Assembly (NCBI GenBank): GCA_001599975.1
Contig: BCIO01000004.1
Location: 3,055,898 to 3,119,897 of the forward strand
DNA from: Cystobasidiopsis lactophilus
Lineage: Eukaryota; Basidiomycota; Agaricostilbomycetes; Agaricostilbales; Chionosphaeraceae
Length of the DNA stretch: 64,000 bases
Reading direction: 5' to 3'
Shown: piece by piece, positions 41,617-42,476 of the stretch
Layout of the letters: each line of letters starts with the position of its first letter
Numbering within the stretch: the stretch's first letter is position 1
Notes under the pieces: model-generated
Database searches by the model: none
What the model was told of the DNA's origin: nothing
The model's input: only the letters and a program-made list of their open reading frames with translations
Position numbers and translations under genes: made by a program

Positions 41617-41845
41617 TTCGTTTAGAGGGTGCGTGCTTGCAAAAATGTTGATCCACCGCTGCCTTGAACTTTCCTCTGAGTGGCTTCTCTCCTCCTAAGA
41701 CCTTGTCTAAGTGTTTGAGTCGACCATTGCCTCTGGACAAAGCGCACAAAAATCTGCCACAAGCTGGTGGATTGGTCAAAAGTGGCCTGAGCCGGGCGGC
41801 GCGCCAGCGGACTTGCAGGTATTACTCTAAAGTCACGATGGCCGA

Positions 41846-41903
41846 GTACGTTTTTGCCACTTTTTTTGCTAGCCTTGCGCGGTTCCCTTACCCGATTCTG
41901 TAG
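41846..41903 (+). other. 58-nt intron-like insertion in the tRNA D loop
   Basis: Begins GTACGT and ends ATTCTGTAG, with a CTTAC branch-point-like element at 41887-41891, 13 nt before the end. This is the same architecture and size as the spliceosomal introns of protein genes in this window. Removing it leaves the D loop A-GGGG-TTAA. Removing the equivalent 58 nt two bases later (41848-41905) leaves the canonical AGTGGTTAA. It contains TTTTT (41851-41855) and TTTTTTT (41861-41867). Confidence 0.75.
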
Positions 41904-41926
41904 GGGGTTAAGGCGTCAGACTTGAA

Positions 41927-41942
41927 TCTCGCTTCAAATGAT
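41927..41942 (+). other. canonical 16-nt tRNA intron
   Basis: Lies one base 3' of the anticodon, the standard position for nuclear tRNA introns. It contains TTCAA, which can pair with the TTGAA around the anticodon, as usual for substrates of the tRNA splicing endonuclease. Removal restores the 7-base anticodon loop CTTGAAA. Confidence 0.85.
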
Positions 41943-42476
41943 ATCTGATGGCATTTTGCCGCGTAGGTTCAAATCCTGCTCGTGACGGAACTTTTTTTTT
42001 TTTGCTGCGGGCTCCGACCGATTTTTTTTGGAGGCGGACTATGACTTTCCGCGGATGGCTTACTTGCTTTGGATCAATGTTGCCTGCACCCTTTACGGGC
42101 GGAGAAGCTTGCTGACTCCAGTACACATTGCACATGCCCTGCCCGTTTCGAAATTCGCTGCTTTCTTTTGAACCTTCAACTGGCCTCAGGGTTGTTTTCT
42201 CAACACATGCATGGGATGGGGACTCCTCAACCAGAAGTCGTTTCTTTGGCGAAGAGGCGGTGTCGCATGGCGTCAACGAATACCTGTGCTCTCTGTTTGG
42301 TGTTCTCTACACGTCCATTGCAGTGCTCCTACCACCCTGTAAGCATCAATTAGACTATCTGTTTCTGGCTCAAGTCTCAACCTTTTGATTCCTGTGTTGT
42401 CGGTACGCAGGCGCGCTGTTGACGATTGGCATTCTTAACGTTCGAATCTTTTGCTAGGCCATACCGACTACGCACC

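Follow-up and report, generated by a model that had tools for sequence, protein, structure and literature searches.

Ectopic introns in eukaryotic tRNA genes have been described from red algae and nucleomorphs, and nuclear tRNA introns are attributed to a dedicated endonuclease in the accessible parts of the reviews PMC4090602 and PMC3978253. In these same parts, the string 'spliceosom' is absent from the former paper and occurs once in the latter, where it concerns protein genes. As far as the available descriptions reach, the tRNA introns of the Cyanidioschyzon merolae nucleus, the Guillardia theta nucleomorph and the Thermoproteales occupy non-canonical sites (D arm, anticodon stem, T arm), sometimes with several introns per gene. 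In C. merolae and the archaea, BHB motifs are present and excision is ascribed to the endonuclease; the many ectopic introns of G. theta that have no defined BHB are 3–24 nt long. The introns described here share the non-canonical sites, but differ from those of C. merolae and the archaea in having GT-AG ends, a G at position +5, branch signals and the length of mRNA introns. In Schizosaccharomyces pombe and some basidiomycete yeasts, mRNA-type introns occur in U6 snRNA genes, which are transcribed by Pol III. The likeness to these yeasts would be a spliceosomal intron in a Pol III-class gene. There, however, one essential RNA is concerned, whereas here most of the tRNA genes found are interrupted and the U6 genes carry no intron. 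Compared with the spliceosomal introns of fungal protein-coding genes, one difference lies in the host transcript, which here is a tRNA, and another in the frequency of TTTTGC. Among the matches listed for the open-access literature, outside which most subscription journals fall, no paper describes spliceosomal introns in nuclear tRNA genes, nor does any deal with the U6 introns of these yeasts. To our knowledge, a need for the mRNA splicing machinery in nuclear tRNA production is undescribed.

Anatomy of the tRNA-Ser(UGA) gene

The window, i.e., the whole stretch of 64,000 nucleotides that was analysed, lies on contig C4 of an assembly of 22.1 Mb in eight contigs. A GRP94-like fragment, obtained by joining exons of the window, has its nearest named relatives in Phenoliferia, Rhodotorula, Rhodosporidiobolus, Meredithblackwellia and Mixia (55–59% identity). 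Judged by these relatives, the host lineage is Pucciniomycotina.

Direct reading of the forward (+) strand at 41832–41987 gives a tRNA-Ser(UGA) gene whose D loop holds a GT...AG insertion of 58 nt and which also has a canonical intron of 16 nt. Exon 1 (41832–41845) comprises the 5' strand of the acceptor stem, whose seven nucleotides pair with 41980–41986, positions 8–9, the 5' strand of the D stem and the start of the D loop. The GT-AG intron (41846–41903; GTACGT...CTGTAG) follows nucleotide 14 and thereby splits the A box at 14/15. It contains a T5 run (41851–41855) and a T7 run (41861–41867), each followed by GC, a motif that is common 3' of most tRNA genes, as well as a branch-site-like CTTAC (41887–41891) with its A (41890) at 13 nt from the intron end. 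Exon 2 (41904–41926) holds the remainder of the D arm, the 5' strand of the anticodon stem, the anticodon TGA and nucleotide 37. The canonical intron (41927–41942), of the tRNA endonuclease type, is located at 37/38. Exon 3 (41943–41987) supplies the 3' strand of the anticodon stem, a long variable arm, the T arm, the 3' strand of the acceptor stem and a discriminator G. By direct reading, the B box (GGTTCAAATCC, 41966–41976) is intact, and a T12 run followed by GC (41992–42003) is the likely terminator.

Whole-window scans by ARAGORN and by Rfam at the gathering score return no tRNA and no family. This includes the group I and group II self-splicing introns, for which no Rfam family reaches the gathering score in the window; the 26 GT-AG introns found in tRNA genes of this genome measure merely 51–76 nt. 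Once spliced, the gene is identified by ARAGORN as Ser(tga) with a length of 82 nt, while the unspliced form is misread as Arg(tct). The cloverleaf score amounts to 15.0 after GT-AG excision against 6.4 without excision. For the spliced 82-mer, the predicted structure is a cloverleaf that includes a long variable arm (−30.4 kcal/mol, z −2.69); the fold of the unspliced transcript is quite different.

The initial annotation had described a Ser(UGA) gene with these two insertions, a CTTAC 13 nt before the end of the longer one, internal T5 and T7 runs and a split A box, all of which agree with our reading and with the ARAGORN call on the spliced form. It had also stated that removal of the insertion restores a normal D loop. 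This is true for the GT-AG excision, but not for this excision alone: shifting it by +2 at the same length (41848–41905, without GT-AG ends) gives a D loop of normal length as well, and a higher score (16.0), because GAGTGG is left where the GT-AG excision leaves GAGGGG. At the window locus, the GT-AG junction is therefore supported in part by what is seen at the other loci.

Interrupted tRNA genes across the genome

A scan of the genome for other interrupted tRNAs, as proposed in the initial annotation on the basis of a single gene, yields 37 tRNA genes, 25 of which (one weakly supported) hold a total of 26 GT-AG introns outside the anticodon position. The interrupted genes are Ser(TGA, AGA, CGA), Leu(TAG, CAG, CAA, TAA), Arg(TCG, TCT, ACG, CCT), Pro(AGG, TGG, CGG), Lys(CTT, TTT), Ala(AGC, CGC), Val(CAC, AAC), Gln(TTG), Thr(CGT), His(GTG), Phe(GAA) and Asp(GTC). 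The weakly supported member is Arg(CCT), where a single canonical intron of 86 nt fits nearly as well (15.0 versus 15.5). Interrupted genes are the only ones found for ten amino acids (Ser, Leu, Arg, Pro, Lys, Ala, Val, His, Phe and Asp). No intron outside 37/38 is present in 12 genes, namely Glu(CTC) (twice), Gln(CTG), Gly(GCC) (twice), Gly(CCC), Gly(TCC), Met(CAT) (twice), Ile(AAT), Tyr(GTA) and Thr(AGT). Genes for Asn, Cys and Trp tRNAs were not found in the genome by Rfam, ARAGORN and T-loop pattern searches, and the tRNA set is therefore incomplete. A canonical intron is also present in 29 of the 32 genes parsed. Such introns require a tRNA endonuclease, with which the two tRNA endonuclease domains above cut-off in the genome fit.

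An Rfam tRNA search of the genome gave 18 matches, 12 of them above cut-off. A pattern of a T loop plus T5 run occurs at 87 places (79 in the reversed control) and a second pattern at 47 (68 in the control). Since these numbers are close to those of the controls, the matches are mostly due to chance, and genes were chosen by T-arm pairing, acceptor match and a restorable cloverleaf. The 87 places of the first pattern were screened for T-arm pairing by script; 46 of the 47 places of the second were fetched, and C3:1520453 was judged from the letters given by the pattern searches. A T4-terminator pattern shows no excess (159 matches versus 179 in the control). Note that the searches are biased to genes with a standard T arm. 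Three genes (L005, L006 and L008) are included on the basis of ARAGORN only. In L019 and L064, the canonical intron as cut by the parser gives a short variable arm, which is probably wrong for Leu; ARAGORN still assigns both to Leu.

Four loci are kept outside the counts. L095 (C8:185889) is tRNA-like, with an apparent D-loop GT-AG intron that contains T7GC, an acceptor that cannot be paired and a partial copy of its own 3' part directly downstream. The other three are truncated copies of interrupted genes: Leu(CAG) (L136, C3:2200960–2201260), Ser(AGA) (L020, C3:14481) and Asp (L016, C5:2901311). The Leu(CAG) and Ser(AGA) copies keep the intron, suggesting that these genes were duplicated as DNA once they had acquired it.

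The U6 genes (four matches spanning 100–109 bases of the 105-position model, three of which were read) have no intron, so the invasion did not take in all small RNA genes. Pairs of small RNA genes of the same type, i.e., Gly(GCC), Glu(CTC) and U6, lie close together on opposite strands without GT-AG introns (C2:1518120/1518508, C4:142480/147819 and C5:1917364/1924492; one U6 of its pair was not read). Possibly, copy correction keeps such opposite-strand pairs intron-free.

In 16 genes, the intron is situated in the A-box region, from the 5' strand of the D stem into the D loop. The 3' strand of the D stem is interrupted in three genes (Ser-AGA, Phe, His), the anticodon stem or its border with the loop in four (Gln-TTG, Val-CAC, Arg-ACG, Arg-CCT), and the variable loop (Val-AAC) and the T stem (Asp) in one each. 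Asp(GTC) (L012, C5:2907427) has its intron (GTGAGT...AAACAG) at 64/65 and is otherwise uninterrupted, without a canonical intron. Pro(TGG) (L018, C5:3035144–3035240 plus upstream) apparently has, besides a canonical intron, two GT-AG introns that flank a 6-nt exon (GTCTAG) in the A-box region. Both L018 introns and the L012 intron were placed by eye. The tRNA endonuclease reads the folded tRNA body. As introns in stems should block this folding, they must leave before the endonuclease acts.

Intron ends were further analyzed in an end-blind manner: per locus, all excisions of 30–110 nt were scored for cloverleaf restoration and the end sequence was ignored. The 23 loci were picked by score alone, with thresholds fixed after the enumeration scores were known. 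Arg(CCT) (L068), for which 15.0 is reached with no GT-AG intron removed, and L012 fall outside this test. In 18 of the 23 loci (0.70 expected), the best-scoring excisions include one with GT..AG ends, the next pair being GG..CA with seven; in 22 loci (2.19 expected), GT..AG comes within 1 point of the best score. The one exception is Pro(TGG), a gene that requires two excisions. The window locus has its GT-AG excision in second place, after the one shifted by 2 nt. GT...AG ends thus occur beyond chance, as for U2-type spliceosomal introns.

As a reference, 60 mRNA introns of the window were predicted by a codon-usage model without splice consensus (median length 61 nt; G at +5 in 36), some with wrong boundaries. 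The five well-placed introns of the GRP94-like gene (58–71 nt) start with GTGCGT, GTGAGC, GTTCGT, GTTCGT and GTTGGT; one boundary in this gene was corrected by hand, and two of its seven introns are provisional, as the joined frame breaks near the end. Among the tRNA introns, +5 is a G in 24 of 26 (p about 9e-12 against 0.28), a count favoured by the choice of the better 5' consensus in L013 and L019, where two GT-AG excisions tie, and in 18 of the 20 that enumeration places uniquely (p about 1e-8). Position +6 is a pyrimidine in 22 of 26. On a 5' splice-site matrix built from the 60 predicted introns, the median tRNA intron reaches the 97th percentile of all GT sites of the window, and 22 of 26 exceed the 75th. 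Of the 26 tRNA introns, 19 have CTNAY close to their 3' end, compared to 28% in shuffles and 16 of 30 mRNA introns; YTNAY is missing from the stretch examined in four of the 26. The 5' consensus is thus host-like and a branch site lies upstream of the 3' AG, in line with a U2-type spliceosomal intron. The tRNA introns and the spliceosomal introns of the protein-coding genes in the window have in common a GTNNGY 5' site, a CTNAY branch site, AG and a length of about 60 nt. The resemblance to the surrounding mRNA introns, which had been noted earlier for the window gene, extends to the tRNA introns as a group, in 5' site, branch site and length. This anatomy strongly supports that the insertions are spliceosomal introns, present in most of the tRNA genes found.

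A common origin of the introns, as introners, was considered as well and rejected. The 26 introns form no clear family, as the best pairwise alignment score (38, L001/L065) equals the best of 3000 shuffled pairs.

Transcription, splicing and competing explanations

Very probably, the window locus functions as a tRNA-Ser(UGA) gene, with a U2-type spliceosomal intron in its D loop alongside an ordinary anticodon intron, and belongs to a group of about 25 tRNA genes of such build found in the genome. Pol III would transcribe the gene and terminate at the 3' T12 run, after which the spliceosome would recognise GTACGT, CTTAC and CTGTAG and take out 58 nt. The precursor would fold as a tRNA only upon loss of this intron, and the tRNA endonuclease and ligase would come last, removing the 16-nt anticodon intron. 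An unusual route with spliceosomal removal followed by tRNA splicing was one of two options in the initial annotation, and it is supported by the anatomy. Counterpoints are the alternative fit of Arg(CCT), the intron-free U6 genes, the incompleteness of the tRNA set and of the BLAST search, the better score of the +2 excision at the window locus, the 16 genes with introns in the A-box region and the T5+ runs within introns, at which Pol III should stop.

The latter two points may instead reflect spliceosomal introns in precursors that are made by Pol II, for which split A boxes and internal T runs would be no obstacle. Such precursors would also fit with the normal coupling of spliceosome assembly to this polymerase. 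The A-box region is interrupted in 16 of the 25 genes, and T5+ runs occur in nine of 26 tRNA introns versus three of 30 mRNA introns (Fisher p 0.047), with T6+ runs in six of 26. The gene ends, on the contrary, look as expected for Pol III. A T5+ run lies 1–41 nt 3' of the gene in all 33 genes checked and is followed by GC in 28 of them, while GC follows 16 of the 74 T5+ runs in the whole window. Within 50 nt downstream of 32 genes, TTTTTGC is found 29 times on the sense strand and zero times on the other strand. The B boxes of the found loci are intact, in part because the searches demanded a standard B box. Together, the T5+ tails and intact B boxes favour Pol III, and we consider Pol II precursors rather unlikely.

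The T(n)GC motif is not restricted to the gene ends. TTTTGC occurs ten times in the 1576 nt of the tRNA introns (in nine introns: L001, L014, L019, L022, L042, L065, L066, L068 and L077), as against a single occurrence in the 1699 nt of 30 selected mRNA introns and 57 in 128 kb (both strands of the window). This corresponds to an about tenfold enrichment relative to the mRNA introns, which are those 30 of the 60 predicted with +5 G and a length of at most 80 nt. If T(n)GC terminates Pol III, genes with the motif inside their introns should stop early. If it is no terminator, it may, for example, cause pausing that gives the spliceosome time, or bind a protein that recognises U-rich tracts beside the 5' splice site.

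Alternatively, the ectopic introns could be cut by the tRNA splicing endonuclease, in the style of C. merolae, crenarchaea and nucleomorphs, with incidental GT...AG ends. This has a precedent in D-loop introns and multiple ectopic introns, with 34 of 43 nuclear tRNA genes disrupted in C. merolae (PMC3978253 and PMC4090602, in their accessible parts), and the genome encodes two endonuclease domains. The complete central 4-bp helix of the BHB, which is found in C. merolae and archaeal introns, is present at none of 23 GT-AG junctions, against 9% at random, although this is a weak test, as the canonical introns used as positive control (17%) are barely above random. A looser measure (at least three pairs in both helices) is weakly discriminating as well (GT-AG introns 17%, random 12%, canonical introns 24%). 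Moreover, many ectopic introns of the G. theta nucleomorph also have no defined BHB according to the available part of PMC3978253, so that a missing BHB is no exclusion. What endonuclease cutting leaves unexplained are the GT..AG ends, the +5 G and the branch signals. We regard it as improbable compared with excision by the spliceosome.

It is still less probable that the interrupted genes are pseudogenes and that intact genes supply the cell. The initial annotation had offered this for the window gene, as an intron that jumped in and killed it. No intact Ser(UGA) copy was found by BLAST or by a D-arm pattern with at most two mismatches, which matched the two Ser(AGA) loci only, and the feature proved common to most tRNA genes found. 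According to the accessible part of PMC4090602, insertions in the D or T arm of eukaryotic tRNA genes mostly affect a single gene among numerous synonymous ones, and the affected genes are supposed to be pseudogenes. Three truncated copies (L016, L020 and L136) and two mismatched acceptor pairs in Thr(CGT) (L042) also point in this direction. After intron removal, however, the exons give complete cloverleaf arms, as functional tRNAs would, and ARAGORN recognises all 34 spliced sequences (25 with GT-AG introns and nine without) as tRNAs of the expected anticodon. A T5+ run follows all 24 of the 25 interrupted genes that were checked. A whole-genome BLAST search with the 25 spliced sequences, which was not exhaustive and missed the truncated Ser(AGA) copy L020, gave 41 matches, comprising the exons of the 25 genes themselves, a Gln(CTG) cross-match, the truncated Asp copy and the truncated Leu(CAG) copy with the same intron. 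No redundant intact gene, i.e., no intronless copy of any of the 25, is among them. A TGGC-type A box with a B box at most 58 nt behind it gave 17 matches (16 in the control), none tRNA-like by eye, and the TAGC-type equivalent gave four (22 in the control), one of which is Ile(AAT); both patterns are blind to genes whose canonical intron is long, such as Tyr(GTA). If the interrupted genes were pseudogenes, ten amino acids would be left without a tRNA gene in the set found. With no intronless copy found and ten amino acids represented by interrupted genes only, the interrupted tRNA genes should be working genes. An assembly or sequence artefact can practically be dismissed, as the same anatomy appears at 25 separate loci on contigs C1–C6 with different intron sequences.

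Probable dependence of tRNA supply on splicing

Making tRNAs in this fungus probably requires the mRNA splicing machinery. We infer from the gene anatomy that the spliceosome is likely an obligatory tRNA maturation machine here, acting before the endonuclease on most tRNAs. The tRNA supply for at least ten amino acids would then depend on splicing, and the intronic T(n)GC may gate transcription or splicing. GT-AG introns and tRNA genes are both known parts; their combination and the proposed two-step maturation are new. The same phenomenon may hide elsewhere: on 33 unspliced loci, ARAGORN returns nothing for 12 and misreads the remaining interrupted ones. The finding makes it testable whether Pol III transcripts are routine substrates of the spliceosome. 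If true, the boundary between the two splicing systems would fall, with the spliceosome maturing a whole complement of tRNAs, spliceosomal introns would be able to invade structured Pol III-class genes genome-wide, and the translation capacity of the cell would be tied to its splicing capacity.
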